From Gemmatimonadota bacterium (GTDB lineage: Bacteria > Gemmatimonadota > Gemmatimonadetes > Gemmatimonadales > GWC2-71-9): a DNA stretch of 33,469 bases. Position numbers and translations under genes: made by a program. Positions 8,625-30,423 of the stretch are shown here, in pieces. Every line of letters begins with the position of its first letter. The first letter of the stretch is position 1. The notes below the pieces were generated by a model. It searched no databases. It was not told where the DNA came from and worked only from the letters and a program-made list of their open reading frames with translations. The stretch covers positions 1 through 33,469 of the forward strand of contig JAJCZW010000119.1 in the NCBI GenBank assembly GCA_029262155.1, read 5' to 3'.

Positions 8625-8725
8625 CGCGAAGCCACGAGTTCGCCCCCGGGTGCCCGGGTGTGTGGCGAGAGGAGTGCTGACCGTCACTGAGGGAGGTTGG
8701 CTTCAATCCTCGAGGGAGGTGTACC

Positions 8726-9271
8726 GTGGTCCATCGGTTCCTAGGCACCGGCCTGCTCGCGCTGGTGGTGACTCTTGCCCCGCCTGTGGCTGCGCAGAAT
8801 GCCGCCCCACCGGACTCGCTGGCCCTCAGGGCAGCGGCCATCATCGAACATGAGGTTGGTCGTTGGGCCTCAACGTGGGAGTGGTATGGGGTGGATGGCA
8901 CGGTGGTCAGAACCCAGCAGGGAATTGAAGAATTCGCCTTTGTGGTAGGGAAATCGATCGTCGAGGTGCGGACGGAATCCGATGGCAATGTCACCAGCGC
9001 CGGTCTTCGATTCTACAGTCCCACTGATCGAACGATCATCACGTTCTCCGTGAGTCCGGATGGCAATCCATGGACGCTGCGAGAGGACATTGAGACGAGA
9101 GTCGTCCAGTCCGATCCCCACACATCGGCGAATGGGCGAGTGATCATCCTGCGGTGGACGCCCCAGAAGACCAGCGAGAATGAAATGGTGGTTCTGATGG
9201 AGCAGTCGAGGGATGGGGGGGCGACTTGGTTCAAACGGAATGTACAGACCATGCGTCGAATGCAGCCGTAA
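8726..9271 (+). CDS. Secreted hypothetical protein (DUF1579-like lipocalin-type)
   Basis: GTG start after GGGAGG RBS; signal peptide VVHRFLGTGLLALVVTLAPPVAAQ; beta-rich, WEWYGVDGTVVRTQQGIEEF...EQSRDGGATWFKRNVQTMRRM. Confidence 0.65.
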   Translation: MVHRFLGTGLLALVVTLAPPVAAQNAAPPDSLALRAAAIIEHEVGRWASTWEWYGVDGTVVRTQQGIEEFAFVVGKSIVEVRTESDGNVTSAGLRFYSPTDRTIITFSVSPDGNPWTLREDIETRVVQSDPHTSANGRVIILRWTPQKTSENEMVVLMEQSRDGGATWFKRNVQTMRRMQP

Positions 9272-9304
9272 GTCTCTGCGCAGATCAGGTTTCAGCAGAG
9301 CTTG

Positions 9305-9769
9305 TTATGGTGTAGACTGATCCACGAACGTCGTACGAAATGGGCCAACGCCGTATACCATCAGGATGGTTTGGCCCCGCCCACCCGCGTAGTGCACTCG
9401 TTCAGCGGGAATCACGACAACACTACCAGGCCCAAGCGAACGAACGACCGCTTCATCGACCTTTCTCCCATCTCCTATCAGCGCGATGCCCTCGACCACC
9501 AGGATCCGCTCGGCGGTGTTATGCCAATGAGGGTTGATCCATACGCCATCGGGAAGCCGAAGCATCATGGTAAAGACCGAACCTGGAGTTGCCGGGTTGC
9601 CGTCGGTAATGGCGATATCGAACCCACCTTGGGTTCGCCGCCAGGGTATGTCCTCCCCTGCCACAATGCGAAGAGAATCTCCTCCGGTCTGGTTGGCTTG
9701 GGCTTGGGAGTGACGGACCGGTATGAGGACCACCACCAAGGCAAAGAGCACGCGGAGTTGGTTCAGCAT
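9305..9769 (-). CDS. Secreted cupin-domain protein
   Basis: 154 aa; signal peptide plus VFTMMLRLPDGVWINPHWHNTAERILVVEGIALIGDG...GPGSVVVIPAERVHYAG cupin motifs. Confidence 0.88.
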   Translation of the reverse strand: MLNQLRVLFALVVVLIPVRHSQAQANQTGGDSLRIVAGEDIPWRRTQGGFDIAITDGNPATPGSVFTMMLRLPDGVWINPHWHNTAERILVVEGIALIGDGRKVDEAVVRSLGPGSVVVIPAERVHYAGGRGQTILMVYGVGPFRTTFVDQSTP

Positions 9770-9911
9770 GTGGCACTGTCCTTATCAAACAGATGATGAT
9801 GTGAACGACCTTCTTAGGATGGTGTCGCTTGGGTGGGTGGACAACTCTGATGGGGGGAGCCGTGGTGGGGGGTGATGACCCGTTCGGTTGACCCGAGACT
9901 CCTCCTGTTGC

Positions 9912-10004
9912 TACCCTTCGCTACCGCCAGGGGCATCCGATGGACCACCCGTACGGATTGAGAGGCACCCTTGGAACCTGATCCGGCTGATACCGGCGAA
10001 GGGA
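9912..10004 (+). promoter_or_regulatory. TPP riboswitch (THI element) upstream of thiC
   Basis: Conserved core TGAGAgGCACCCTTGGAACCTGATCCGGCTGATACCGGCGAAGGGA; outer stem CCCTTCGC...GCGAAGGG; P3-like ATCCG...CGGAT immediately before TGAGA. Confidence 0.95.
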
Positions 10005-10052
10005 GCGCGGTCCCCTGACCGGTGGCCGCCGCTCTCCCGATCCGATCTGTAA

Positions 10053-13356
<3,304 letters not shown>

Positions 13357-13374: not shown

Positions 13375-14991
13375 TTATCGCAGTCGTCGGGCGGTATTGA
13401 TCACATTGACATTTGCGAAACGCGTCGTGGGACAGCCATGGGAGACGGCACTGACCTGACCGGGCTGTCCCTTTCCGTCGAAGAATGACCCTCCCAGACG
13501 ATAATCGCTTGTGCCACCGAGCTGCGCGACCGCATTCCAGAATTCCTGGGTGTTCGACTGATAGGCAACATCGTTCAGCATCCCAACGATCTTCCCATTT
13601 GCGATTTCATAAAAGAGCTGACCGCCAAATTGGAAGTTATATCGCTGTTGATCGATGGAGTACGATCCGCGCCCAAAGATATAGATCCCCTTCTCGACGC
13701 TCCCGATGAGGTCGTCGCGACTGATATCGTTCGGATTCGGTTGGAGAGAGACGTTGGGCATTCGCTGAAACTGTACGGAGTCCCAGCTATCGGCGTAGCA
13801 ACATCCGTGGGACGCCCCTTGGCCTAAGATGTGGACCTGGTCCCGGATAGCTTGGTAATTCACCAAAACACCATTGCGGACGAGGTCCCATTGGCGGGTC
13901 TGGACGCCCTCGTCGTCCCAACCCACTGTCCCCAGAGCGTCAGCCTGTGTCTTATCAGCGACGAAGTTGACCTTCTCGTTTCCGAACTTGAATGTTCCTG
14001 ACTGCCACTTGTCGAGCGTGGCGAAACTCGTTCCGGCGTAGTTGGCTTCGTAGCCGAGCACGCGGTCCAGTTCGAGCGGATGCCCTACTGACTCATGAAT
14101 GGTGAGAAAGAGATGCGACGGGTCGAGGACCAAGTCCCACTTACCAGCTGCAATGGACCGGGCGCTAAGCTTTTCGCGGGCTTGGGCCGCTGCGACGGTT
14201 GCATCCTCCACCATGTCGTACCGATTGCCATAGATCGGCGTGATACCAGGAAGTGCGGACCCTGATTGGAGGTATTCGTACCCCAGCCCAATGGGAGCGC
14301 TCAGGGCGTTCCGGGTTTGAAATCGTCCGCTCGTCGGATCCACGGCGGTCACGGTAAAGGTGGGCCAGATCCGATGGATATCCTGTTCGATAAAGGACCC
14401 GTCGGAGGAGGCGAAGTACTTCTGCTCATTCACCGCAAAGAGTTGGCTGTTGATGAAGTTGGCTCCAGCCTTGAGGGCGGCCTCGTTGACACTGAGCAGG
14501 AGGTCGACCTTTTCTGCCACAGGAACCAGTTGGGCGTTGCGTTCGATGGGCGTCTTCCACGTGACGTCACCATACGCTGGTACCGGTGCCAGCTGAACCG
14601 GTTCGGTTTGGAAGCGGGCATTTGCCTTCGCGACCGCCACGGCTCGTTCTGCCGTGCGCACGATCGACTCGGGGGTGACGGTATTGGAACTTGCGAACCC
14701 CCAGGTACCTTGGGCGAGGACTCTAATCCCCACCCCATAGGATTCCGTACTGGTGATCCTTTGGACCAACGCTTCCCGAGTAGTGATGGCTTGGTTGAGA
14801 TACCGTCCCAGTCGTACGTCGGCGTACTCGGCTCCGCGATCGCGAGCGACGGCCAAGGCGGTTGTTGCGAGCGACTTCTTGTCGGCAGTTGGAATTGGAG
14901 TGATGGCGCCATTCCAGTCTTGAGTTCCGGGGGGCAGGATCAAAGCGCCTGCTGCGGCGGTGCTCAATTCCAGGAAATCTCGTCTCCGCAT
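13375..14991 (-). CDS. TldD/PmbA-family metallopeptidase, Tat-exported (copy 2)
   Basis: Tat signal MRRRDFLELSTAAAGALILPPG; HESVGHPLELDR zinc motif; GQGASHGCCYADSW; C-terminus of TldD family. Confidence 0.92.
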   Translation of the reverse strand: MRRRDFLELSTAAAGALILPPGTQDWNGAITPIPTADKKSLATTALAVARDRGAEYADVRLGRYLNQAITTREALVQRITSTESYGVGIRVLAQGTWGFASSNTVTPESIVRTAERAVAVAKANARFQTEPVQLAPVPAYGDVTWKTPIERNAQLVPVAEKVDLLLSVNEAALKAGANFINSQLFAVNEQKYFASSDGSFIEQDIHRIWPTFTVTAVDPTSGRFQTRNALSAPIGLGYEYLQSGSALPGITPIYGNRYDMVEDATVAAAQAREKLSARSIAAGKWDLVLDPSHLFLTIHESVGHPLELDRVLGYEANYAGTSFATLDKWQSGTFKFGNEKVNFVADKTQADALGTVGWDDEGVQTRQWDLVRNGVLVNYQAIRDQVHILGQGASHGCCYADSWDSVQFQRMPNVSLQPNPNDISRDDLIGSVEKGIYIFGRGSYSIDQQRYNFQFGGQLFYEIANGKIVGMLNDVAYQSNTQEFWNAVAQLGGTSDYRLGGSFFDGKGQPGQVSAVSHGCPTTRFANVNVINTARRLR

Positions 14992-14992
14992 C

Positions 14993-16885
14993 CTACGTCT
15001 CCTCTCGTTGGGGAACGCGGTTGTCTCCACCCATTCGCATGTCCGGCCGTCCTTCGAGCCAGAGCCAGGCAACGGCGATCAGAAAGATGGTGGCGAACCC
15101 CGCCGCTGGTATCGGGACCGATCGGGCCTCGTTCCGTTCTTCACCGATGGCGCGTGTCGGCTGGCCAGCCTTCCCGGCAATCGCGGTCGAGGCTCGTCTC
15201 CGTCTGAAGGATTCTCGTGCCTGCCCTGCAGTAGCATGCTGTACCAGGAACGCTGCACTCGGTATCGAATCTTCGACAGTTCGGACGGTATACTCTCCCG
15301 GCTCCGATGGCCAGTACAAACTCATCCAGGTGGACGAGTCGAGCGGATCGGGTGTCAGCCGGACCGTATCCGTCGGTTCCAGCTCGGTGCGCTGAATGAC
15401 CGCGGTCATCGGCGAGGAGAGACTGTTCGTAGTGAGACGGAGTCTCACGGGTCGCCCGGGACGATGCAGGGTGGCCGACCCAAAACTCCACCGATTGCTG
15501 GCGTTCGGCGCAACGGCATTGAGCAGCCCAACCCAGTATTGGGCAAATGCCGTCGTGTCGTCTTCGAACCTCCAACGGGATGGGTTTCTGACAAGCGATG
15601 CTCCGAGGAAACCCCGTCCGATCCTCCGCCGGGACGCGAGGATATGGCCTGTGCCATCGGTGATGAGGGGTTCATCGCCGAGTCCCATGGTGAGTTCCCA
15701 CGGGTCGGCCAGCAGCGGTGTCATCGGGGCCTTGGGCGCCGAGAGTCGCTGGAGGTCAAGACGTACTTGCCGGACTGGGATTTCGGCGATCTGACGGACC
15801 AGGATGTTGCCGGCCAGAGTGCCCGGTCGAGCGGTTTGGAGGGTTTCAGGGTCCCCAACGAACAACACGCCTAAGCCACGCTCAAGGGCCTCAGTGAGCA
15901 CCCGGTTCTCTCTGGTGTTGAGTGAGGCAAGGGTCGTCCCGTCAATCAGCACTAGGTCGATATCGTCGAGTATCGTGGGTGTCATCTGTGCGAGTGGCCG
16001 CTTCTCCAGATTGACAAACTCCTGGCGCATGCGATCGATACTCATCGTCGTCCGGATGGCAATTGCCCCACCGTGATCAGCGTACCAACGGCGGAGTGCA
16101 TTCGTCTCGAAGCTGGGAGCATGTTCGAGCACCAAGAGCACTGGCAGGGTGGGTCGGTACACCGTCGTCACCACCGTGTCCGATCCACCTTCTGGATCGG
16201 TCAGGACAAGAGACTGTATCCCTGTCGTCCGGGGGGTCATGGCCAAGTGAAAGACAGTATCCCCCGACACCCTCACTGAGTCGTGCCGCTCGAACGGGTC
16301 AGAAAGCACGATCCACCCCTCCAGTCCGTGACTCTGACCATGGACGGCGATCGCGTTTCCCAAGGCGACCTGGGGCGCGACTCTAAGAAAGGTGATCCCG
16401 ATTGGTTGAGGGCTCGGTCGGAGTTGGAGATGCGGTGGATTATCACCGAGCAGGGCCTCTTCCGGCGCGACTCCCCATCCGGCGATGAGCACGGTCTCAA
16501 GACCTGGAACCTGGTCCTGAACCTGCTGTAGCGTTTGTGCGATGGGGATGGTGCTCAACCGACCGCCGGCCTCAAGGTTGGGCAGACGGAAGAGATGGGG
16601 CGTCGCCACCGAGTCGATGAGCCACGTGGCGTCCCGTTCCGACACCCCCGGCGTGAAGACGATGGCGGTCGTAGCGCTGCTTGGCCGTTGCGGCTGCCGT
16701 GTGATCCACTGAGGGGCCACACCGAGTCCGGCCAAGGCAACGCCGATCACGAGCGTCGCCAAGAGGCGCCACGTTCGAGCGTGTTGTCGTGGGCGGGTCC
16801 ATTCCAGGTAGAGGGCACCGGCAGTGAGCGCAAAGATCAGGAAAAGGAGGAACACTTCGCCCCGTCCGGTTGGAGACCACGTCAT
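14993..16885 (-). CDS. Large membrane-anchored protein with GATase1/BatA-like architecture
   Basis: Start MTWSPTGRGEVFLLFLIFALTAGALYLEW by 4-bp overlap with upstream gene; DIDLVLIDGTTLASLNTRENRVLTEALERGLGVLFVGDP; C-terminal TM GFATIFLIAVAWLWLEGRP. Confidence 0.75.
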   Translation of the reverse strand: MTWSPTGRGEVFLLFLIFALTAGALYLEWTRPRQHARTWRLLATLVIGVALAGLGVAPQWITRQPQRPSSATTAIVFTPGVSERDATWLIDSVATPHLFRLPNLEAGGRLSTIPIAQTLQQVQDQVPGLETVLIAGWGVAPEEALLGDNPPHLQLRPSPQPIGITFLRVAPQVALGNAIAVHGQSHGLEGWIVLSDPFERHDSVRVSGDTVFHLAMTPRTTGIQSLVLTDPEGGSDTVVTTVYRPTLPVLLVLEHAPSFETNALRRWYADHGGAIAIRTTMSIDRMRQEFVNLEKRPLAQMTPTILDDIDLVLIDGTTLASLNTRENRVLTEALERGLGVLFVGDPETLQTARPGTLAGNILVRQIAEIPVRQVRLDLQRLSAPKAPMTPLLADPWELTMGLGDEPLITDGTGHILASRRRIGRGFLGASLVRNPSRWRFEDDTTAFAQYWVGLLNAVAPNASNRWSFGSATLHRPGRPVRLRLTTNSLSSPMTAVIQRTELEPTDTVRLTPDPLDSSTWMSLYWPSEPGEYTVRTVEDSIPSAAFLVQHATAGQARESFRRRRASTAIAGKAGQPTRAIGEERNEARSVPIPAAGFATIFLIAVAWLWLEGRPDMRMGGDNRVPQREET

Positions 16886-19038
16886 CGGATCCGGCCTTGC
16901 CGCCGACGTGCCAGCGATGCCCGGTAGGCTTCCCCCAGGTCGGCGCGGTCGGCAGATCCCGGCATGCCGCCGGGCAATGGGCGAGGCAGTATCTGCCGGA
17001 AGGCACTCCCGATTGGAAGGAGACATTCTTGGCACTGCTCACCCACCGACAGCCGGTCGATCATCGTTCGGAGGGAGCGGAGTGCTGGTAGGAGCCCCGG
17101 CCGCTGAATGGCTGCGGACGCCAGCGACTGTCCCGCACGTTCAAGGACGACTCGTTGGCGATCGGTGGAGGGATGACCAGCGGAGAGTTCGTTCAAGACC
17201 AGGACGGCGGCCCGGATGTCCGCCAACGCGGTGTCCTGAGTCGACCTGCTCGGCGTCGACCATTCGTGGAGGGCCGAAAGATCTCCGGTTAACCGAATTC
17301 GGTCTGTCTCCAAGGGCGGCGGATCGAAACCAACCCGCTTCACGTACGCCCGGGCATCCTGTTGTACCTCCTTCAACAGCGTCAGCGCTCGGTACTCATA
17401 GGGGAGTGCGGTCCGAGGCTCGGCGGTTCTGAGGTAGAGCTCGGCTTGCCACATCTCCTGCACCGCACTTCGGAGTTTCTCCTTTACCGAGGTTGCCAGT
17501 AAGGTTGCGTTCTCCTCCGTATCGTGATCGTGCACCTCCGCTTGCGCGGGGTCGGGTGGCGGGGCGTTCGGGTCGACCGGGCGGGTGGCGTTCGCATCGT
17601 CCGGAGTGGGCGAGCCCGCCCCGTCCTCAACTTCGTCGCCAAGAAACTCACCATAGCGAAGCCGCAGGAGCCCCTGGTCCATCCCAATCCCGTTCGCCCG
17701 ATCACGGAAGACGTCTGTCGTGAGAGTTGGGGCGTCGGTCAGGAGCTGTTCGGTATCGATAATGATCTGTCGTTGACTCCGGAAGTAATCAGGCGGGAGC
17801 GCGAGGGCGATCCCTGCGAAGTCTGTTGCGACAGTGGCAGCAGTATCAGGAATGCGCAGGAACACGGTTTCTGAACGGCTCCGATTGGGTGACGGCGTAC
17901 GAAGATCGGTCGCTTCGATGTGGAAATAGAGTTCGTCACCGGGCTGGAGTCCCATCGCGTCGAGGTCGAAGGTATGGTGGTAGCGGAGGCCTGTTGGGTC
18001 GGGGACGATCGGAATCGAACGTCGAGTAAAGGTGACTCCTTCCCCTTGGCCTTTGGTGATCGTGGCCTCAAGGGTCGAGAGGTCGACCCCGTGATCGTCC
18101 TCAATGACAGCACTCATAGGGACGTGGAGCGAAGATCCCGCTCGTATGTCGGTGCGTGTTTCAGGCTCGATAATCGCAATGGTTGGAGGTTGGTCGGCGC
18201 GAACGGCCAGGCGGTGATCCTCAGTTCTGAACTCGATTCTATCTGCGTCCAGGAGCGAAATACGGTACAGTCGGGACCTACGAACCGCCGTCGCGCTTCC
18301 CACCCACTCGCCCAACCGATTTCGTACCAGTGGCAGGGTGTCCTCATCCGAAAACAGAATCTGAACCGCGCTGACTGGACGATTGGGGCGGAGGGTCCAT
18401 TCGATCGTGGCACCTTCGACGACCTCTAGGTCGAGATCAGTCGTGGTGCGGGATCCGATACTCGTGTAGCGGGGCGACGTGATGCGCACCCGCGCTTGAC
18501 GGAGGGTCGGTGAGACAAGGCCGGTCGAAACCGCCATCGCCGGGGCGACAGCGCGGCGAGGCTGTGATGCAGTCGTCATCGGCTTCAGGAGGAGCAGTAG
18601 GCCCAGTACGGCCATGACACCGCTCCAAGCGAGCAACAGTCCTACGTCGCCCTTCACGGTGAGCCCGCTTTTCGGAAGGGTGGCGAGGGCGTGGTCGACC
18701 CGACCGCGTTGGTACTGGGCAAGTGGTGACAGATCGGCGACCCGGCGCACCAACAGATCGGCGGAGTGTTCAACCATAGGGTCAGAGTGATTGAGACGAC
18801 GGGCGATGGAGAGCGCCGTTATTGGACGATAGCGTTGCCGGAGCACGACACCGGTGAGGCCGGCAACAAGCACTGTTAGGGCAAGGCTCATCATCCATGG
18901 TGTCGGGGCATGGAGCACCCGGGCGAGTCCGGGGCCAAAGACGAGGGTGGTGAGCACGACCGCCACGACGCCGACGAGTGTGCGTCGGCGTTCAGTCGCC
19001 TTCGCCACCTGGTCGAGTAGGACCGATCCTCCGCTCAT
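16882..19038 (-). CDS. DUF4175-like membrane protein
   Basis: MSGGSVLLDQVAKATERRRTLVGVVAVVLTTLVFGPGL...; two N-terminal TMs plus a third near residue 135; long extracytoplasmic region; helical C-terminus. Confidence 0.75.
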   Translation of the reverse strand: MSGGSVLLDQVAKATERRRTLVGVVAVVLTTLVFGPGLARVLHAPTPWMMSLALTVLVAGLTGVVLRQRYRPITALSIARRLNHSDPMVEHSADLLVRRVADLSPLAQYQRGRVDHALATLPKSGLTVKGDVGLLLAWSGVMAVLGLLLLLKPMTTASQPRRAVAPAMAVSTGLVSPTLRQARVRITSPRYTSIGSRTTTDLDLEVVEGATIEWTLRPNRPVSAVQILFSDEDTLPLVRNRLGEWVGSATAVRRSRLYRISLLDADRIEFRTEDHRLAVRADQPPTIAIIEPETRTDIRAGSSLHVPMSAVIEDDHGVDLSTLEATITKGQGEGVTFTRRSIPIVPDPTGLRYHHTFDLDAMGLQPGDELYFHIEATDLRTPSPNRSRSETVFLRIPDTAATVATDFAGIALALPPDYFRSQRQIIIDTEQLLTDAPTLTTDVFRDRANGIGMDQGLLRLRYGEFLGDEVEDGAGSPTPDDANATRPVDPNAPPPDPAQAEVHDHDTEENATLLATSVKEKLRSAVQEMWQAELYLRTAEPRTALPYEYRALTLLKEVQQDARAYVKRVGFDPPPLETDRIRLTGDLSALHEWSTPSRSTQDTALADIRAAVLVLNELSAGHPSTDRQRVVLERAGQSLASAAIQRPGLLPALRSLRTMIDRLSVGEQCQECLLPIGSAFRQILPRPLPGGMPGSADRADLGEAYRASLARRRQGRIR

Positions 19039-20606
19039 CGAGTCCGGCCCCGGGCTCTTCGCGCCATGACGAGTCGTTCCGTCCCGAAGAGCGCGATGGT
19101 GATGAGCAGCAGCGGCAATCGGAGGGACCGTTTGGGTGGGACGAGGGTGGTGTCGGCCGCGCTCGGCAGATCGAACAGTACTAATTGCGAGGTGGCGAGC
19201 GGAGTTGTTGGTGGAATTGCGAACCGTGTCTCGGCCAGGTCGGCGGGGAGCATCACCGCCCAAAGCAACTCGGGCAAGCCGCGGTCAAGTACGAGCGAGT
19301 TCCAAGTAGGATCCAAACGGCTAAAGAATCGGTACTTCACCCCGGCACCAAGGACTTCCCTCGTCAGAAGCGGTTGACCGCGTGCATCGGTGAGAACCAC
19401 GACCGCGGTACTCGCAGTGTCAGGTGATACGCGCTTCCAGAGACGGGCCGAGCCGAGATCGAGTTGGCCCCATAGGCCACTCGCGCTGGGGGTGATGGTC
19501 GTGCCCGATCCCGGCAGATCGACACCGATCTGGGGATCGCTCAAGAAGAGTTGGGCGCCGCGCTGGACCAGCGAGTCGATGCTGGCCGGAGGCGGGGTTC
19601 GGGCCAGCCAAAACACCCAAGCCGGCGAACCTGCATCGATTGGACGTGTCACTCGGCGACTGTCGTACGACACCTCCGTGGAGAAGGAGAGGTGGGTGGT
19701 GTGTTCCACAGCGGTGAGCGCTGCGCCGAGGTATCCAACCTCTGCTTCGCGATCAGGGTCAGCAACGATGAGGACGGTGTACGGGGGGAGTGGGCGGACG
19801 ATCATGGATGGGGCCGAGCGCTCACCGGGAACCGTGAGCGGCGTTACGAAGAGACCATCCCGCTCTTGAGTCAGGCGGACACCGCTTCGAGTAACAGGTT
19901 GTGTGATCGGCGGAGCGGCGACGGTCACAAGGGAACGGGATGACATTCCTTCGGGAGAAGTCGTGATTCGATCGAGTACAACCGAATCTCCCTGTCCCAT
20001 CCAGGCCGCTTGGATTCGCATTCCGGGGCGGGACAGCGTAGGGGCATGCCAAGTGACAGGCGTGGAAAGCAATGGGCGTGGCCCTTTCCGAGCACTGAAT
20101 TCTCTCGGTGCGATCACCAGGAATGTCGTCGCCGAAGGGAAGTGTTGGCTGGCCTGGAGCAGATGGGTCCACGGGTCGATCGGATCCGGCAGATCGGGGA
20201 TGAGGGATGGCGTGCCCCAGCGAACCGCGGTGAAATCGTTAGTGAGGAGGTAGGCTGGTGTTCCCGTCCGACGAATCGAATCGACGATGGGATCGATCCG
20301 ACCGAGTTCATCGTGGAGCACGATCGGATCGATCAAGACTATGACGGTAGATGTGCGCTTACTCGCCGGGAGGACCAGCCCGGCGAGTAGGAGTATGAGA
20401 GGGACCAGGACCATCATCCGTAGGAGCAAGAGGAGAGGGTCCATCAACCGCCGACTCGCCGCACGGGCGGTCGAAAGCTGCTCCAGGTGACGCACAGTCC
20501 CCACGTGGATGATCCGTCGCGCGCGGGTGCTCCAGAGGTGTAGGAGAATTGGAATCCCCAGCGCCAAACCACCGAGCAGCCAGAGAGGGGTCGTTAGTCC
20601 GGGCAT
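19035..20606 (-). CDS. BatA-like N-terminal double-TM domain protein
   Basis: MPGLTTPLWLLGGLALGIPILLHLWSTRARRIIHVGTVRHLEQL (BatA N-terminal signature), second TM LLLLLRMMVLVPLILLLAGLVL; C-terminal TM. Confidence 0.88.
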   Translation of the reverse strand: MPGLTTPLWLLGGLALGIPILLHLWSTRARRIIHVGTVRHLEQLSTARAASRRLMDPLLLLLRMMVLVPLILLLAGLVLPASKRTSTVIVLIDPIVLHDELGRIDPIVDSIRRTGTPAYLLTNDFTAVRWGTPSLIPDLPDPIDPWTHLLQASQHFPSATTFLVIAPREFSARKGPRPLLSTPVTWHAPTLSRPGMRIQAAWMGQGDSVVLDRITTSPEGMSSRSLVTVAAPPITQPVTRSGVRLTQERDGLFVTPLTVPGERSAPSMIVRPLPPYTVLIVADPDREAEVGYLGAALTAVEHTTHLSFSTEVSYDSRRVTRPIDAGSPAWVFWLARTPPPASIDSLVQRGAQLFLSDPQIGVDLPGSGTTITPSASGLWGQLDLGSARLWKRVSPDTASTAVVVLTDARGQPLLTREVLGAGVKYRFFSRLDPTWNSLVLDRGLPELLWAVMLPADLAETRFAIPPTTPLATSQLVLFDLPSAADTTLVPPKRSLRLPLLLITIALFGTERLVMARRARGRTR

Positions 20607-20622
20607 CCGATGTTGACTCCGG

Positions 20623-21525
20623 TCATCGGGTGCGAGCGGTGGCGGCGAGGTACCGCCTGAGCGCGAGGGCGAAGGGTTCGTCGAGGCTCATTCGACAATA
20701 ATCCACCTGCATCTCCTCAAGCTCCACCTCAAGATGGTGTACAGCTGCCTGCCAGCGGGCGCGGTAGGTGTCGCGGAGCGCAGTGGGGTCGGCGGAGATC
20801 CGTCGACCGGTTTCGAGTTCTTCGAACGTGGTGGGGCCTTCCCAGGGAAGGTCGCGCTCCGACGCGGATGTGATGTGCAGGCAGATCACATCGTGTCGGA
20901 GGGCCACCATCTTTTTGAGCGCGAGTTGAATCTCGGTATTCTGCTCGACACAGTCGGTGATCACAACGGTGACGCCCCGACGTCCTCCGACCTCCAGTTC
21001 GGTCTCGATGCGTTCCCAGGGCGGCCACTGTCCATGTGGGGCCACGTCTTCGAGGAGATGGAGCATGTGGTGTAGATGCTGTTGGCCCCGACTTGGGCGG
21101 ACCGTGTGAATGGCACCGTCCGTGACGATAGAGAGTCCTACCGCATCCCCTTGCCGGGTGGCCATGAGGGCGAGGGCGGCGGCGACATGCCTTCCATAGT
21201 CGAATTTGGTAAGGGCCCCGTCCGATTCCAGCATCGACGCAGTGCCATCGACCAAGAGGCGTACCGTGACGCTGGTTTCGGTGTCAGCTTCCCGCACGAA
21301 GTAGCGGTCGGATCGGCCGAACAACTTCCAATCGACCTGTCGCAAGTCGTCGCCGGGTTGATAACTCCGATACTGACTGAACTCTAACCCGGCACCCGCG
21401 CGTTGACTCCGATGCATGCCGAGCATGAACCCGTCGACAATGGTCCGGGCGGCAAGATCCAGATCGCGGAGCATGGCCACGGAAACGGGATCAAGGAAGC
21501 GATAGGCGGTGACGGGTCGTGTCAC
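20623..21525 (-). CDS. DUF58 domain protein (vWA-like)
   Basis: GTG start in GTGA overlap with the MoxR stop; GAGLEFSQYRSYQPGDDLRQVDWKLFGRSDRYFVREAD (DUF58 signature), MIDAS-like LVDGTASM. Confidence 0.93.
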   Translation of the reverse strand: MTRPVTAYRFLDPVSVAMLRDLDLAARTIVDGFMLGMHRSQRAGAGLEFSQYRSYQPGDDLRQVDWKLFGRSDRYFVREADTETSVTVRLLVDGTASMLESDGALTKFDYGRHVAAALALMATRQGDAVGLSIVTDGAIHTVRPSRGQQHLHHMLHLLEDVAPHGQWPPWERIETELEVGGRRGVTVVITDCVEQNTEIQLALKKMVALRHDVICLHITSASERDLPWEGPTTFEELETGRRISADPTALRDTYRARWQAAVHHLEVELEEMQVDYCRMSLDEPFALALRRYLAATARTR

Positions 21526-22535
21526 ACGGGCGGGCTCGACGGATATCGAATGGTATCCAGGAGGCGATGGGTTACTGTGTCGGCATCGATCCCATCGGCT
21601 TCCGCGCGAAAGCCCACGAGGATGCGGTGCCGGAGCACCGGCAACGCGACGGCAGCGAGGTCGGGTGGTGTCACGCTGAATCGACCATGCAGTAGCGCCC
21701 TGGCTTTGGCGCCAACCACGAGCGCTTGCCCTGCGCGGGGGCCTGCACCCCACCGGACCCAGTCTCGGATGAAGGGAGGGGCGTCCTGATCTGGGCGCGT
21801 GGCGCGTACCAAGCGTGTCACGTAGGCCAGGAGGTCCTCCGTGATATGCACGTCCCGTGTCAGGGCCTGTGCCTGGAGGAGTTCGGTACTAGTGACCACA
21901 GGTTCAACACGTGGCGTATCGCGCCCCGTGGTGCGGGCCAGGATTTCCTGTTCCTCGTTTGAGGCGGGGTACCCCAGCCGGATGTAGAGCAGGAAACGAT
22001 CGAGCTGGGCTTCAGGAAGGGGATAGGTGCCGGTCTGTTCTATGGGGTTCTGTGTGGCCAACACAAAGAACGGCCGGTCAAGTGTGTGGGTTGTCCCCCC
22101 GTAGGTGACGGCGCCTTCCTGCATTGCCTCGAGGAGCGCGGCTTGTGTTTTCGGTGGGGTACGGTTGATCTCGTCGGCCAGTACGATGTTGGCGAAAATT
22201 GGCCCACGGTTGAACTTGAAAAACCGCTTCCCGGTGGCGTGATCCTCTTCGAGGATTTCGGTCCCGAGGATGTCGGTGGGCATCAGATCAGGGGTGAATT
22301 GGATTCGGCGAAACTGTAAATGGACGGCATCGGCCAAGGTCCGAATCATCAGGGTCTTGGCGAGTCCGGGTACCCCTTCAAGGAGAGCGTGTCCGCTCGC
22401 CAGAAACGTGATGAGCAGCTCTTCGACGGCGGCGTCCTGCCCCACGATGACCCGGGCGATTTCCTGTCGCAAGGCCGCCAAGCGCGCCATGACGATCTCG
22501 ATTTCGGTCGCGATATCACCGGACGTCTCGGTCAT
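21522..22535 (-). CDS. MoxR-family AAA+ ATPase
   Basis: EGVPGLAKT Walker A variant; NIVLADEINRTPPKTQAALLEAMQEGAVT Walker B; FVLATQNPIEQTGTYPLPEAQLDRFL. Confidence 0.97.
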   Translation of the reverse strand: MTETSGDIATEIEIVMARLAALRQEIARVIVGQDAAVEELLITFLASGHALLEGVPGLAKTLMIRTLADAVHLQFRRIQFTPDLMPTDILGTEILEEDHATGKRFFKFNRGPIFANIVLADEINRTPPKTQAALLEAMQEGAVTYGGTTHTLDRPFFVLATQNPIEQTGTYPLPEAQLDRFLLYIRLGYPASNEEQEILARTTGRDTPRVEPVVTSTELLQAQALTRDVHITEDLLAYVTRLVRATRPDQDAPPFIRDWVRWGAGPRAGQALVVGAKARALLHGRFSVTPPDLAAVALPVLRHRILVGFRAEADGIDADTVTHRLLDTIRYPSSPPV

Positions 22536-22542
22536 GTCATCC

Positions 22543-23208
22543 TCATGCCGTCATCGCGTAGACAACGATATTGACGCTGAACTTGGTGTTGTCTTCGGCG
22601 AGGAAGCGTTTGTTGCGAAAATCGTAGTCCCATTCACACCCATAGTCCTTGTTGCTGTACAATACGGCAATGCGACCGTCAATGGTAATCGCTTTGAGGT
22701 AGTCGTGTACCAGGTCGTCGCCCCAGCCGTTGAGTTCTAAGCTGGCAGTCGGGGGACCATCCTCGAAACGAAAAAATGCTGAATAGAGGTCGTGATCGTT
22801 GGGGATCTTCTGGAGGGCGTCGGCACCAAAGATCGTCGCCATCTGGGCTTCGAACGATCGGGCGAAGAGACCGTCGATATCGTGATTGCAGTCGTCAGCG
22901 AACACAAATCCGCCGCCCTTGACGTAACGGGTAAACACCGCGCGCTCGCGTGCCGTGAATTGGACCAGCCGGTGGCCCGTCAGATAGGCAAAGCCGGTAT
23001 CGAAAACCTCGGGGCTGGCCAAGGGGACGATCCGTTCATGTTCTGCGACGGGGATGGTGGTGTATTCGACCAGCGAGTGGAGCACATTCGAGGGCATGCG
23101 CTGATCGACATCCCAATCACCGGAGGTGTATTGCAGGCGGGTGAAGGTGAATGGGGGAGGACGGTTCCGGCCTCCGGCGGGCCGAAGGCCGGAACGTCTC
23201 GGGGTCAC
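22543..23208 (-). CDS. DUF4159 domain protein
   Basis: FTFTRLQYTSGDWDVDQRMPSNVLHSLVEYTTIPV...FVFADDCNHDIDG...; ATGA overlap with pmbA-like gene; no obvious signal peptide in this gene model. Confidence 0.88.
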   Translation of the reverse strand: MTPRRSGLRPAGGRNRPPPFTFTRLQYTSGDWDVDQRMPSNVLHSLVEYTTIPVAEHERIVPLASPEVFDTGFAYLTGHRLVQFTARERAVFTRYVKGGGFVFADDCNHDIDGLFARSFEAQMATIFGADALQKIPNDHDLYSAFFRFEDGPPTASLELNGWGDDLVHDYLKAITIDGRIAVLYSNKDYGCEWDYDFRNKRFLAEDNTKFSVNIVVYAMTA

Positions 23209-24521
23209 ACAGCGTCCGAGAGGCTCGAGAATGTGAAGTCGCGGGCCCGGATGGGCGGAATCAAGTTGCCTCGGACCCGCGTGGGTGTTCCCAGCGCGTC
23301 CACATTATTGAGCATGATGATGGGCGATTCGTTGAATCGAAAATTCTTGATCGCGTGCTTGATCCGGCCATTCTCGATAAAGAAGGTTCCATCCCGGGTG
23401 AGTCCCGTCAGCAAAAGCGTCTGCGGGTCTACGAACCGGATATACCACAGGCGGGTGACGAGCACGCCGCGGGCCGTGTCGCGAATGAGATCCTCAACCG
23501 ATCCGGTGCCACCAGCCATGATCATGTTGGCTGGAAACGTGACCGGCTCGTGACCAGTCTTTTCGGCCCAGTACCGCGAATAGGCAAGGTTTTTCACCAC
23601 GCCGTTCTCAACCCACTGGGTCCGCCGTTGCGGCTGGCCATCGCCGGCCCAGGGTGAGGTAGGGACCTCCGGATGGGACGGATCGGAGTAGATCGACACC
23701 TGCTCATCGAACATCTTTTCGCCCAGTTTGGTGCCGCCTCCGGGCTTGGAAAGTGCGCTGCGGCCTTCGTCAGCGTTGCGGGCGTTCAAACTGAATCCCA
23801 GCGGTTGCAAGAGGTCGACAAATGCCTCGGGTTCCAGGATCACGGTGTACTTCCCGGGTTCGATCGCACGCGCCTCGCGGGAGGCGACAGCCTTTTCCAC
23901 GGCGATGCTGCTGACCGCGCCCGAATCGAACTTGGCGACGTCGTTGTAGTCGCGTGCGACGTAGCCGGAGCCGGTGCCGTCTTCCGTCCTCATCGTCACA
24001 GAGAAGTTCACTCGAGTCTGGCGGTGGTAGGCAAACAGGCCTTTGGTGTTCGCCATCGCCTGCCAACCGGCGGTGTCGTTGTAGAACCCCGCGGCCACGC
24101 AATTTTGTGCTTTCGCCGGACGGATACTCGCTGCAGCGACTTCGGCCCGGTCGTCCGGCGTGATGGCGGCCGTCTGATCGACCCACGCTTGGGTTGTGGT
24201 GTATTCCTGCGGCCCGAGTACATCCATGAACTCAGGGTTTTCCGGTGCGAGCTGCGCCAATTCTTCCGCCCGCCGGACGGTGCGTTCCAGTGCCTCATCG
24301 GTAAACTCGTTGGCGGTGGCCACCCCGCTCCGTTTCCCGATGTTCGCCTGGACAACCAGGGTGACATCTTCTCCAACGCCGGCGGTGCTGACAGTGTTCC
24401 GGGCGTACCGGATATTGCCGCTCACGTTGCCGCTGATGTTGATCTCGCAGGAATCAGTCTGGGAGAAGGCCAACGCCTTGGTCAGGAGTGCGCGGGCTTC
24501 GGCTTCGGTCATCTGGGACAT
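23205..24521 (-). CDS. PmbA/TldE-like TldD-family protein (no signal peptide)
   Basis: 438 aa; lacks HExxxH; RYARNTVSTAGVGEDVTLVVQANIGKRSGVATANEF; FPANMIMAGGTGSVEDLIRDTARGVLVTRLWYIRFVDPQTLLLTGLTRDGTFFIENG. Confidence 0.92.
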   Translation of the reverse strand: MSQMTEAEARALLTKALAFSQTDSCEINISGNVSGNIRYARNTVSTAGVGEDVTLVVQANIGKRSGVATANEFTDEALERTVRRAEELAQLAPENPEFMDVLGPQEYTTTQAWVDQTAAITPDDRAEVAAASIRPAKAQNCVAAGFYNDTAGWQAMANTKGLFAYHRQTRVNFSVTMRTEDGTGSGYVARDYNDVAKFDSGAVSSIAVEKAVASREARAIEPGKYTVILEPEAFVDLLQPLGFSLNARNADEGRSALSKPGGGTKLGEKMFDEQVSIYSDPSHPEVPTSPWAGDGQPQRRTQWVENGVVKNLAYSRYWAEKTGHEPVTFPANMIMAGGTGSVEDLIRDTARGVLVTRLWYIRFVDPQTLLLTGLTRDGTFFIENGRIKHAIKNFRFNESPIIMLNNVDALGTPTRVRGNLIPPIRARDFTFSSLSDAV

Positions 24522-24553
24522 GGCTCTTCCTCTGGACGATGGTCGACGCAGCG

Positions 24554-26197
24554 TTAGATGCGGCGCGCAGTGTTAATGACGTTGACGCCGTCCACCCGAG
24601 TGGTGGCGGCCCCGTGGCTCACCGAGCTGATTTGGGGAGGTTGACCCTTCCCATCGAAGAACGACCCATTCAATCGATAGTCGCGACGGTCGCAAATGGC
24701 ACTGACCGCATTCCAAAACTCTTGGGTGTTGGACTGATAGGCGACGTCACGGAGCATCCCAACGATCTTGCCGTCTCGGATCTCGTAGAAGAGTTGGCCA
24801 CCGAATTGGAAGTTGTAGCGCTGCTGATCGATACTGTAGGAGCCGTTCCCGACGATGTAGATCCCTTTCTCAACACCAGCAATCATCTCGTCGGGAGTCA
24901 GGGGCGCCGAACCGGGTTCGAGTGAGACATTGGGCATCCGCTGAAACTGGACGGAACTCCAGTTGTCGGCATAGCAGCACCCATGGCTGGCGTTCTGCCC
25001 CAAGATATGGACCTGATCGCGGATGGCCTGGTAGTTGACCAAGACGCCGTTCCGGACCAGGTCCCACTCTCGGGTCTTCACCCCTTCGTCGTCATAGCCT
25101 ACCGCGCCGAGTGAGCCCGGCTGGGTCTTGTCGGCAACGAAGTTGACCTGATCGCTGCCGTACTTGAAGCTCTTGCTCTCCCACTTGTCGAGGGTGGCGA
25201 AACTTGTGCCGGCGTAGTTGGCTTCGTATCCGAGGACCCGATCGAGCTCGAGGGGATGACCCACCGACTCATGGATCGTCAACCAGATGTGGGATGGATC
25301 GAGCACCAGGTCCCACTTCCCAGCTTCCACCGACTTCGCAGATACCTTGGCGGTGGCCTGTTCCGCTGCGAGGCGGGCATCCTCGACCATGTCATAGAAC
25401 TGGCCGTAGGTCTGGACGGCGGGCCCCTGAATCTTGCCGGCCGGTCGTCCGGACAGATACTCCCATCCCATGCCGACCGGGGCCGACAACGATTGCCGGG
25501 TGTCAAACTTGCCACTCGCTTTGTCGACCACGGTCACGTTGAAGTTTGGCCACGTCCGATGGATGTCTTGGTCGATATAACTGCCATCGGTTGAAGCGAA
25601 ATACTTCTGTTCATTGACCAGGAACAGCCCTGAGTTGATAAAACCTGCCCCTCCCGCGGCTGCGGCCTCGCCCACCGCTTTCAGGAGGTCAGCTTTTTCC
25701 GCAATCGAGACTTCGAAGGCACTCTTCTCGATCGGCGTCTGCCACTGGACCTCCCCGAAGCCCTGCTGTGGTGCGAGGAGAACGGGATCGCTCTGCACCT
25801 TGGCGTTCGCCTTGGCAATCGCCACCGCCTGCTCGGCCGCTCGCGCCACACCATCGGCTGTGACGTCGTTGGTGCTGGCGAACCCCCACGTGCCGTTGGC
25901 AATCACGCGGACGCCTACCCCGAAACTCTCGGTGTTGGCGACACCTTGGATCTTGGTTTCACGGGCGTTGATGAACTGATTGAGGTACCGACCGATGCGG
26001 ACGTCGGCGTAGGTTGCCCCGCGGGACCGGGCGGCCCCCAAGGCGGTATCGGCCAGCTGCTTCTTGTCGGCCGACGGAATGGCGGTCAGGCTCCCGTTCC
26101 AGTCGGCGTAGGTCTTCCCCCACGGGGTCACGACCAATGCTCCGGCAGCCAATCCACTGTACTGTAAGAAGTTACGGCGCTCCACGATAGACTCCAA
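24554..26197 (-). CDS. TldD/PmbA-family metallopeptidase, Tat-exported (copy 1)
   Basis: Tat signal MESIVERRNFLQYSGLAAGALVV; HESVGHPLELDR; very similar throughout its C-terminal half to the 13375..14991 product. Confidence 0.93.
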   Translation of the reverse strand: MESIVERRNFLQYSGLAAGALVVTPWGKTYADWNGSLTAIPSADKKQLADTALGAARSRGATYADVRIGRYLNQFINARETKIQGVANTESFGVGVRVIANGTWGFASTNDVTADGVARAAEQAVAIAKANAKVQSDPVLLAPQQGFGEVQWQTPIEKSAFEVSIAEKADLLKAVGEAAAAGGAGFINSGLFLVNEQKYFASTDGSYIDQDIHRTWPNFNVTVVDKASGKFDTRQSLSAPVGMGWEYLSGRPAGKIQGPAVQTYGQFYDMVEDARLAAEQATAKVSAKSVEAGKWDLVLDPSHIWLTIHESVGHPLELDRVLGYEANYAGTSFATLDKWESKSFKYGSDQVNFVADKTQPGSLGAVGYDDEGVKTREWDLVRNGVLVNYQAIRDQVHILGQNASHGCCYADNWSSVQFQRMPNVSLEPGSAPLTPDEMIAGVEKGIYIVGNGSYSIDQQRYNFQFGGQLFYEIRDGKIVGMLRDVAYQSNTQEFWNAVSAICDRRDYRLNGSFFDGKGQPPQISSVSHGAATTRVDGVNVINTARRI

Positions 26198-28179: not shown

Positions 28180-28986
28180 ATGGAGGTCGGCCTGCTCCTC
28201 GGTTACGCATTCGCACTTCTCATCGGTCTCTCCCTCGGTCTCCTCGGTGGAGGAGGGTCGATCCTCACCGTCCCAGTCCTGCTGTATTTCTTCGGGTATG
28301 GGATGAAGGAGGCGGTGCCGATGAGCCTGGTCGTCGTCGGCCTGAGCAGCCTCTTCGGAGTTTCGCGACATCATCGCGCCGGGAACGTGGACTTCCGGGC
28401 GGCCCTCGCCTTTGGGCCGGCTGCGATTGTTGGATCGTTCGGTGGTGCGGCGCTGGCACTTCGAGTCTCCTCCAAGTTTCAAGTCACCCTCTTCGCCATC
28501 GTGATGCTTGGGGCTGCTGTGGCGATGCTTCTTCGCAGGGCCACTACCGGCTCCACATCGGAGGCCCAAGCGGGACACCCCCTGGCGATGCTCCTCCTGG
28601 GTGCTGCCGTGGGGGTGCTGACCGGGCTGGTTGGGGTGGGTGGGGGCTTTCTCTATGTGCCCGCGCTCGCGTTGATTGGCGGGGTCACGATGCGGAGAGC
28701 CGTGGGGACCTCCCTGGTGCTGATCGCGTTGAGTTGTGGGGCTGGTCTCGTCAAGTATGTAGGAGCGATCACCATCCCGTGGGATGTGGTCACGGTCTTC
28801 TCGCTGCTCGCCTTTGTGGGGGTGGTTGCCGGGTCGCGGGTCGCACAACACGTTTCCCAACCAAGCCTCCGGAAGGGCTTCGCCGTCTTCCTGCTTGTGA
28901 TGGGTGTCTTTGTCCTGTGGCGTGGAGAGGGAAAGGGCGCGGTGGACCGATCCGCCACTCCACCGACCGGAGTGATCGACCGATAA
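28180..28986 (+). CDS. Sulfite exporter TauE/SafE family membrane protein
   Basis: 268 aa polytopic; LSLGLLGGGGSILTVPVLLYFFGYGMKEAVPMSLVVVG and GLVGVGGGFLYVPALALIGGVTMRRAVGTSLVLIALS duplicated motifs. Confidence 0.93.
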   Translation: MEVGLLLGYAFALLIGLSLGLLGGGGSILTVPVLLYFFGYGMKEAVPMSLVVVGLSSLFGVSRHHRAGNVDFRAALAFGPAAIVGSFGGAALALRVSSKFQVTLFAIVMLGAAVAMLLRRATTGSTSEAQAGHPLAMLLLGAAVGVLTGLVGVGGGFLYVPALALIGGVTMRRAVGTSLVLIALSCGAGLVKYVGAITIPWDVVTVFSLLAFVGVVAGSRVAQHVSQPSLRKGFAVFLLVMGVFVLWRGEGKGAVDRSATPPTGVIDR

Positions 28987-28998
28987 CGGGAGGGTCGT

Positions 28999-30423
28999 AT
29001 GCTGTTTCACCGTTTTTATGATGACCAGCTTGCCCAGGCCAGCTACCTCGTCGGATGTGCGGCAACCGGCGAGTCGATTGTGATCGATCCCAACCGAGCC
29101 GTCGATCAGTACATCGCCGTCGCCGAAAAGGAAGGGCTCCGGATCACCCATGCCACGGAAACCCACATTCACGCCGATTTTGTGAGTGGGACGCGGGAGC
29201 TTGCCGCACGGACCGGTGCCCGCATGCTGCTCTCTGATGCTGGGCCGCCTGAGTGGCAGTACGCCTTCCGGGATGACCCGGGCGTTGTCCTTCTTGGCGA
29301 CGGTACCACGTTCAAGGTAGGCAACGTCGCCTTTACCACGATCCATACACCAGGCCATACGCCAGAGCATCTGTCGTTTCTCCTGACCGACACCGCTTCT
29401 GCGACCGAACCGATGGGTGTGTTCACCGGCGACTTTGTCTTTGTTGGCGACGTTGGACGTCCCGACCTTCTGGAGAAAGCGGCCCATTTAGCGGATGAAA
29501 GTGAAACCTCTGCGCGGATGCTCTATCGCAGTCTTGTCGCATTTCGCCGACGGCCCGACCACTTGCAGATCTGGCCGGGCCATGGCGCTGGGTCGGCTTG
29601 TGGTAAGGGATTGAGCGCGGTGCCGCAGTCGACCCTGGGGTACGAACGTCGGACGAATTGGGCGTTTCAAATTGAGGACGAATCAGAGTTTGTCGCGGCT
29701 GTGCTCGAAGGGCAGACTGAACCACCGGCGTACTTTGGGAGGATGAAGGTGGTGAATCGAGCCGGGCCGCCGGTAATCGGACAACGCAGAGCGCCGAAAC
29801 GCATCGGCCCCGATCGCCTGGCACAGGTGCTCCGCGACGACCTGCTCCTCGACACGCGTTCGACTGCTGATTTTGCGGCGGGGCATATTCCGGGGTCGGT
29901 CAACGTCCCATGGTCCCAAAGCTTCACAACCTATGCTGGATCGGTACTTCCCTCCGACCGCGACCTCTATTGCCTCCTGCCAGATGAATCCGACCATACG
30001 GCGGAGGTGATCGCTCAGGCGCTCCTCCTGATTGGCTATGATCGGGTCCGGGGCTACCTCGGTCGGGAAGGGGTCGACGGGTGGGTTACAGCGGGTCAGG
30101 TGCTCGGGTCGATGTCGACGCTCTCGGTCGAGGAGCTTTCGGGAATGGATCGCGAAGCGGTCGCGGTCATCGATGTTCGGGGACGAAATGAGTGGAATGA
30201 TGGCCACGTGCGGGGCGCGGTCCTGATCCCTCTCCCGGAGTTGACTGGTCGGTTGGATGAGATTCCGGCGGATCGACCGGTGGTTCTTCATTGCCAAGCG
30301 GGGTCCCGTTCCGCCATCGCAACGAGCATACTCCTCGCCCACGGTTGGCACGATGTTCAGAACCTGACGGGTGGTTTCGCGGCGTGGCGTGCTGCCGGCT
30401 TGCCGGTGACTGTAGATGAGTGA
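28999..30423 (+). CDS. Persulfide dioxygenase-rhodanese fusion (CstB-like; MBL + pseudo-rhodanese + rhodanese)
   Basis: MBL motif THIHADFVSG, HTPGHTPEHLSF, FTGDFVFVGDVGRPDLL; middle rhodanese lacking a canonical active-site loop (LYCLLPDESDHTAEV); C-terminal rhodanese with HCQAGSRSA. Confidence 0.93.
   Translation: MLFHRFYDDQLAQASYLVGCAATGESIVIDPNRAVDQYIAVAEKEGLRITHATETHIHADFVSGTRELAARTGARMLLSDAGPPEWQYAFRDDPGVVLLGDGTTFKVGNVAFTTIHTPGHTPEHLSFLLTDTASATEPMGVFTGDFVFVGDVGRPDLLEKAAHLADESETSARMLYRSLVAFRRRPDHLQIWPGHGAGSACGKGLSAVPQSTLGYERRTNWAFQIEDESEFVAAVLEGQTEPPAYFGRMKVVNRAGPPVIGQRRAPKRIGPDRLAQVLRDDLLLDTRSTADFAAGHIPGSVNVPWSQSFTTYAGSVLPSDRDLYCLLPDESDHTAEVIAQALLLIGYDRVRGYLGREGVDGWVTAGQVLGSMSTLSVEELSGMDREAVAVIDVRGRNEWNDGHVRGAVLIPLPELTGRLDEIPADRPVVLHCQAGSRSAIATSILLAHGWHDVQNLTGGFAAWRAAGLPVTVDE

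Follow-up and report, generated by a model that had tools for sequence, protein, structure and literature searches.

A conserved gene cassette pairing a putatively exported TldD/PmbA peptidase with a MoxR–DUF58–Bat membrane module in Gemmatimonadota and other bacterial phyla

Introduction

The nearest described analogue of a MoxR system with a periplasmic client is mxaRSACKL, in which MoxR, a DUF58 protein (MxaS) and membrane/vWA proteins serve a periplasmic enzyme. The mxaR/S/A/C/K/L products are thought to activate the periplasmic methanol dehydrogenase and, to our knowledge, the system contains neither DUF4159 nor TldD. In the cmd system DUF4159 is fused to a BatA-type protein, and the role of the cmdA-D operon in envelope integrity was reportedly described by Vanderlinde in 2011. 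More generally, MoxR proteins are described as helping particular complexes to mature (PMC3893208), and Escherichia coli TldD is active only with TldE (PmbA), with which it forms a stable heterodimer (PMC5810440). Here we describe a compact, putative nine-gene operon that brings TldD and PmbA together with DUF4159, MoxR, DUF58 and Bat-type membrane proteins. It lies in a 33,469-nucleotide stretch of Gemmatimonadota DNA (the window), which is contig 119 (JAJCZW010000119.1) of a 259-contig, 3.2-Mb assembly (GCA_029262155.1). We give roughly even chances to the reading that the operon encodes a TldD·PmbA peptidase exported by the twin-arginine translocation (Tat) pathway, working with DUF4159 and assembled or activated by the MoxR–DUF58–Bat membrane module.

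Results

Operon organization

The window holds nine collinear minus-strand genes, running from 26185 down to 13375 in frames without internal stops and in the order that an earlier note on this DNA had given them. Gene families were assigned with Pfam, the Tat signal model was taken from NCBIfam, and structures were analysed with AlphaFold and Foldseek. From 5' to 3' the genes are:

24554–26185, minus strand: TldD1, zinc-metallopeptidase subunit (Pfam PmbA_TldD domains; NCBIfam TAT_signal_seq; match to E. coli TldD, 5NJ5; HESVGH with Asp as third ligand)
23205–24521, minus strand: PmbA/TldE-like non-catalytic partner, without signal peptide or HExxxH (Pfam; PDB matches to PmbA/TldE)
22543–23208, minus strand: DUF4159, GATase1/ThuA-like predicted fold, no signal in the window copy (Pfam E 9e-50; AlphaFold pLDDT 80; Foldseek 4I66, E 6e-13)
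21522–22535, minus strand: MoxR AAA+ ATPase with intact Walker A and B (Pfam AAA_3 E 3e-63; nearest PDB entry 2R44)
20623–21525, minus strand: DUF58 (vWA-like), soluble, with the metal ion-dependent adhesion site (MIDAS) motif D-x-[ST]-x-S (Pfam E 1e-41)
19035–20606, minus strand: membrane protein with BatA N-terminal domain and predicted large extracytoplasmic domain (Pfam BatA E 2e-10; topology)
16882–19038, minus strand: DUF4175-like membrane protein with three transmembrane (TM) segments, immunoglobulin (Ig)-like domains and a helical C-terminus (orthologue DUF4175 matches, AlphaFold, Foldseek, topology)
14993–16885, minus strand: GATase-position membrane protein with two TM segments, a predicted extracytoplasmic domain of about 530 residues and a C-terminal TM segment (conserved topology; orthologues in the same position)
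13375–14991, minus strand: TldD2, second Tat-type TldD, catalytic residues intact (Pfam; blastp 68% identity to TldD1)

The successive intergenic gaps are 32, -4, 7, -4, 16, -4, -4 and 1 bp, the MoxR/DUF58 junction being a GTGA overlap; the 4-bp overlaps at four junctions and the single nucleotide between 14991 and 14993, both given in the earlier note, are exact. The remaining gene coordinates were likewise correct except for the start of TldD1, which is most likely GTG 26185 rather than TTG 26197, because an aligned V-[EK]-RR start is present in four of four close orthologues. Pfam matches in the window comprise TldD, PmbA, DUF4159, MoxR (AAA_3), DUF58, the BatA N-terminus and the second TldD and, with DUF4175 recovered through orthologues, they uphold the gene names given before, apart from the label 'GATase/BatA-like' for gene 8, which has no sequence support and is fitted only by topology and position. 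A consensus scan of the operon for promoters and terminators returned fewer sites than in shuffled sequences, and an Rfam search found no element within the operon. None of the nine proteins matched a PADLOC model, and an anti-phage defence reading was dropped on that account.

Conservation and co-occurrence

A TldD-alignment scan over 84,980 species genomes gave at least 600 matches, of which the best 76 loci were examined. The order TldD, PmbA, DUF4159, MoxR, DUF58, BatA-like, DUF4175-like and GATase-position gene is conserved in Bacteroidota, Gammaproteobacteria, Acidobacteriota and other genera of the window's family, so that the cross-phylum neighbourhood comparison proposed in the earlier note is strongly positive. 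Because this order is kept across phyla, its arising by chance is excluded. The best 76 loci are mostly from Bacteroidota (Cytophagia, Flavobacteriia, Sphingobacteriia), and they include Microbulbifer, another gammaproteobacterium, an acidobacterial Thermoanaerobaculia genome and a Gemmatimonadales genome. TldD, PmbA, DUF4159, MoxR and DUF58 are found together in 55 of these loci and all eight genes in 40, frequencies that are biased by the choice of loci for closeness to TldD1; many of those outside the full-cassette set lie on contigs that end early. These loci differ in gene order only by local changes, for example an inverted DUF4159 and a TldD-PmbA lying downstream in Pedobacter, and two gammaproteobacterial loci read TldD-TldD-PmbA-DUF4159-MoxR-DUF58-...-DUF4175-like. 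Seven genomes of the window's family carry the cassette, which is rare in Gammaproteobacteria (3 of 276). No recurrent extra gene family was found beside the cassettes, and a search for a plasmid-borne cassette retrieved only TldD relatives of 33–42% identity.

A single cassette-type DUF4159 is encoded in 27 of 29 tested genomes, including ones whose fetched locus has only orphan TldD-PmbA pairs and which carry the DUF4159 gene elsewhere; the other two are metagenome-assembled genomes of 2.8-2.9 Mb. Among 148 genomes drawn evenly from the Bacteroidota phylum (the phylum of a Salegentibacter genome), TldD1 was present in 13/13 genomes with the cassette DUF4159, against a diverged TldD in 1/135 without it (Fisher p 9e-18, computed without correction for relatedness). 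Linkage alone is insufficient to explain this co-occurrence, because in several of the 13 genomes the genes lie on different contigs (G062, G212, G224). Among family- and order-level relatives TldD1 accompanies the cassette in 8/8 genomes, and two more, both fragmented assemblies, have TldD1 only. A looser system at locus L046, with TldD/PmbA divergent from MoxR, was not used as support, given its imperfect co-occurrence with its own DUF4159 type: the L046-type TldD is present in many order-level relatives and absent in G057, and G041, G045, G047 and G060 have other DUF4159 types only.

TldD and PmbA subunits

The locus shows the hallmarks of the TldD/PmbA family: the three PmbA_TldD domains are there, only one of the two subunits has HExxxH, and the third-ligand position near the C-terminus is occupied by Asp. 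The His, Glu and His of HExxxH are invariant in all 128 cassette TldDs, which also share Asp at the third metal ligand (Cys454 in E. coli), and HExxxH occurs in none of 109 cassette PmbA orthologues. Asp has been proposed as a substitute third ligand, and an Asp variant was predicted for Gemmatimonas (PMC5810440). The variant is not new; it marks here a whole clade of putatively exported, operon-linked TldDs. Additional TldD copies are common in other cassettes, and in seven loci as many as three TldD genes and two or three PmbA genes follow one another, with the catalytic residues intact in every TldD copy.

Export signals

Cassette TldD N-termini begin with RR/RK-x-F followed by a hydrophobic stretch. 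The motif is present in 127 of 128, and the one without it is truncated at the end of its contig; a stricter motif-plus-hydropathy rule is satisfied by 119 of 129 TldDs. In TldD1 the signal is VERRNFLQYSGLAAGALVV, which the NCBIfam Tat model matches. A Tat-like signal was found in 0 of 110 PmbAs, nor was one present in additional PmbAs with usable N-termini, and three diverged pairs (L037, L046, L149) repeat the arrangement of a Tat signal on TldD and none on PmbA. This signal on one subunit and not on its partner, a contrast that the earlier note does not point out, is the sequence pattern of Tat hitchhikers. Of 30 tested genomes, 29 encode TatC, and the remaining assembly is 78% complete. 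The data strongly indicate that the TldD subunit is exported. Since E. coli TldD needs its partner in a stable heterodimer (PMC5810440) and signal-less subunits ride with Tat-bearing partners in HybOC and PaoABC (PMC4273604), the simplest reading is that TldD uses the Tat pathway with PmbA as hitchhiker, and that PmbA would leave the cytoplasm together with TldD.

The L046 (15514-18689) and L037 (10609-13750) pairs, from a family-level and an order-level relative, stand beside other DUF4159/MoxR modules, which suggests that the association of TldD with such modules arose or diversified more than once. The L149 pair (7853-10739; 54% identity) belongs to a Bacteroidota-phylum genome without the cassette DUF4159.

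DUF4159

The cassette DUF4159 is about 70% identical across phyla in the alignment, and its modelled fold is of the GATase1/ThuA-like type, with 4I66 as best match. All seven gammaproteobacterial copies carry a Tat signal of their own, the motif being imperfect in one, and so do the copies of two Gemmatimonad relatives and of four deep-branching Bacteroidota-side genomes; the copies of mainstream Bacteroidota, of the acidobacterium and of the window lack one. On the DUF4159 tree the Tat label needs six changes, with deep branches poorly supported and 2 of the 13 Tat labels set by eye. The signals present in several lineages suggest that DUF4159 sits extracytoplasmically, and the signal-less copies may ride with TldD-PmbA.

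Two motifs are invariant in the cassette protein, DDCNHD (window residues 105-110) and SNKD.GCEWDYD (187-196). The other DUF4159 type, seen in L046, has DDHNHD, with His in place of Cys, and this difference could point to an unrecognised active or metal site. The source genome has three more DUF4159 genes of other subtypes, on contigs 134, 253 and 43; one (L034) has a Sec-like signal and belongs to a type nearly universal in relatives, and another (L035) adjoins a further MoxR.

MoxR, DUF58 and the membrane proteins

As in MoxR–DUF58–Bat modules, a Walker-intact MoxR stands beside a MIDAS-bearing DUF58 and a membrane protein with a BatA N-terminus. The Walker residues of MoxR are conserved in 72/72 sequences and the first D and last S of the DUF58 MIDAS in 63/63. 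All 11 orthologues of the BatA-like protein have the BatA domain, and Pfam found a vWA domain neither in these nor in the window copy. Gene 7 of the window has no direct Pfam match, DUF4175 being matched by 5 of 13 aligned orthologues (best E 1e-20), and gene 8 and its orthologues have no significant Pfam match. The AlphaFold model of the DUF4175-like protein (pLDDT 73, pTM 0.36) shows Ig-like modules together with a helical end, and its Foldseek matches are generic Ig-like folds of low TM-score.

The topology recurs in almost every orthologue. In the BatA-like protein a positive loop of 30–37 residues separates two N-terminal TM segments, and about 270–420 residues then precede a C-terminal TM segment; gene 8 is built alike, its corresponding region having about 470–530 residues, and the DUF4175-like protein has three TM segments followed by about 550–600 residues. 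By the positive-inside rule, the large domains of all three membrane proteins are predicted to face the periplasm.

Other features of the window

A thiamine pyrophosphate (TPP) riboswitch (9919-10022, plus strand) lies directly upstream of thiC (open reading frame 10062-11744; Pfam ThiC). A TauE/SafE permease followed by a metallo-beta-lactamase/rhodanese sulfur-handling protein occupies 28180-30423; these are unrelated to the operon.

Discussion

The cross-phylum neighbourhood and the indicated export of TldD support the earlier proposal of a single envelope-associated functional unit of unassigned function. In the mechanism that we favour, TldD would fold in the cytoplasm with the signal-less PmbA, and possibly with DUF4159 where that too is signal-less, and the complex would be exported via Tat on the twin-arginine signal of TldD. 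Cytosolic MoxR and DUF58 would drive the BatA-like, DUF4175-like and GATase-position proteins at the membrane, whose periplasmic domains would mature, load or gate the peptidase, as in the proposed mxa activation of methanol dehydrogenase, and the peptidase would trim or degrade unfolded exported polypeptides from the N-terminus. Linkage and co-occurrence point to TldD-PmbA as the client of the MoxR module; we infer a periplasmic DUF4159, an activating role of the module and the class of substrate. The membrane proteins had been seen as a scaffold, which is one option; if mxa and other MoxR systems are taken as a guide, ATP-driven activation or assembly is more likely. More broadly, and with a confidence that falls a little short of even, we tentatively propose a cross-phylum envelope machine, in which a cytoplasmic AAA+ motor of MoxR and DUF58 acts through the membrane on a hollow metallopeptidase exported by Tat while PmbA, and sometimes DUF4159, piggyback preassembled.

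Several points weigh against the activation of an exported peptidase by the module. The co-occurrence is silent on which part acts on which; signal-less DUF4159 copies, as in the window, could be cytosolic instead; membrane topology was obtained with a simple hydropathy scan and the positive-inside rule; and the L149 pair indicates that the module may not be needed by all Tat-TldD pairs.

The main rival, which we regard as unlikely, is that MoxR–DUF58 together with the membrane proteins unfolds membrane or envelope proteins and feeds them, by extraction or presentation, to a periplasmic TldD-PmbA chamber for envelope quality control. TldD/E does degrade channel-fed unfolded polypeptides without sequence specificity (PMC5810440), an AAA+ ATPase and a protease share one operon here, the membrane proteins have large outside domains that include Ig-like modules, and the presence of several TldD genes in one cassette would provide extra capacity or further specificities. 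However, the MoxR proteins of known role mature enzymes rather than feed proteases, ATPase and protease would stand on opposite sides of the membrane, and orphan TldD-PmbA pairs are encoded far from the module. These orphan pairs, together with the MoxR–DUF58–DUF4159 modules without adjacent TldD in four order-level relatives, would suit a quite improbable alternative, that the two parts are separate housekeeping units linked by history only and that TldD/PmbA is cytoplasmic with a vestigial N-terminus; against it, co-occurrence persists when the genes are unlinked, the order is kept across phyla, and the twin-arginine motif is retained in nearly all TldDs and is hence not vestigial. Processing of a modified exported peptide of the RiPP type (ribosomally synthesized and post-translationally modified peptide), in which the membrane module would serve as exporter or scaffold and which follows the tie to microcin B17 drawn in the earlier note, recalls the action of TldD/E and TldD-type peptidases in RiPP maturation (PMC5810440, PMC12257519) but is very improbable, because a precursor gene would not fit into the gaps of at most 32 bp in the window and no companion family recurs beside the cassettes, which show neither precursor peptide genes nor a recurrent modification enzyme or ABC exporter and occur once per genome in very different bacteria, with no RiPP link found in the open-access literature.

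TldD/PmbA is widespread and usually treated as cytoplasmic; an exported branch with one subunit tagged would shift the search for substrates and add a predicted group of new Tat hitchhikers. Most MoxR–Bat modules are without identified clients, and a candidate client in the same conserved operon makes the question directly testable. Among the candidate hosts are cultivable genera that carry the whole cassette (Aquimarina, Maribacter, Gillisia, Pedobacter, Microbulbifer).

Comparison with known systems

Within the open-access literature, to which our search was limited, no paper with DUF4159 was found, and of three papers that name both TldD and MoxR a Stenotrophomonas maltophilia biofilm study alone describes them as one operon; a Bradyrhizobium co-mention of TldD and MoxR was incidental. 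That "not-yet-characterized operon" of nine locus tags (NIPOLPBK_01784–01792) contains two TldD, a putative protease, a MoxR ATPase and membrane and hypothetical proteins, and some of its genes were down in biofilm in all seven isolates (PMC7688217). Matched by described gene content rather than by sequence, it is probably the same cassette. Because of the open-access scope, we regard the cassette only provisionally as a previously uncharacterised system.

The Rhizobium leguminosarum cmdA-D operon (RL3499–RL3502), linked to envelope integrity, shares MoxR, DUF58 and BatA-type and large-domain membrane proteins with the cassette (PMC5700661, PMC3893208); no TldD/PmbA is reported there, whereas the cassette has both. 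In contrast to the cmd arrangement, the cassette DUF4159 is stand-alone and, in some lineages, Tat-tagged. E. coli TldD/TldE (PDB 5NJ5) has the same three-domain architecture, with an HExxxH subunit and a non-catalytic partner, but it is cytoplasmic, uses Cys454 as ligand and has no MoxR operon, whereas the cassette enzyme has a Tat signal and an Asp ligand. With the Bacteroides aerotolerance (Bat) operon the cassette shares MoxR, DUF58 and the BatA N-terminal domain; in place of BatB–E it has TldD, PmbA, DUF4159 and the DUF4175-like protein, and its BatA-like protein differs from the vWA-bearing BatA/BatB. Compared with mxa, whose client is a quinoprotein, the putative client here is a Tat-exported zinc peptidase.

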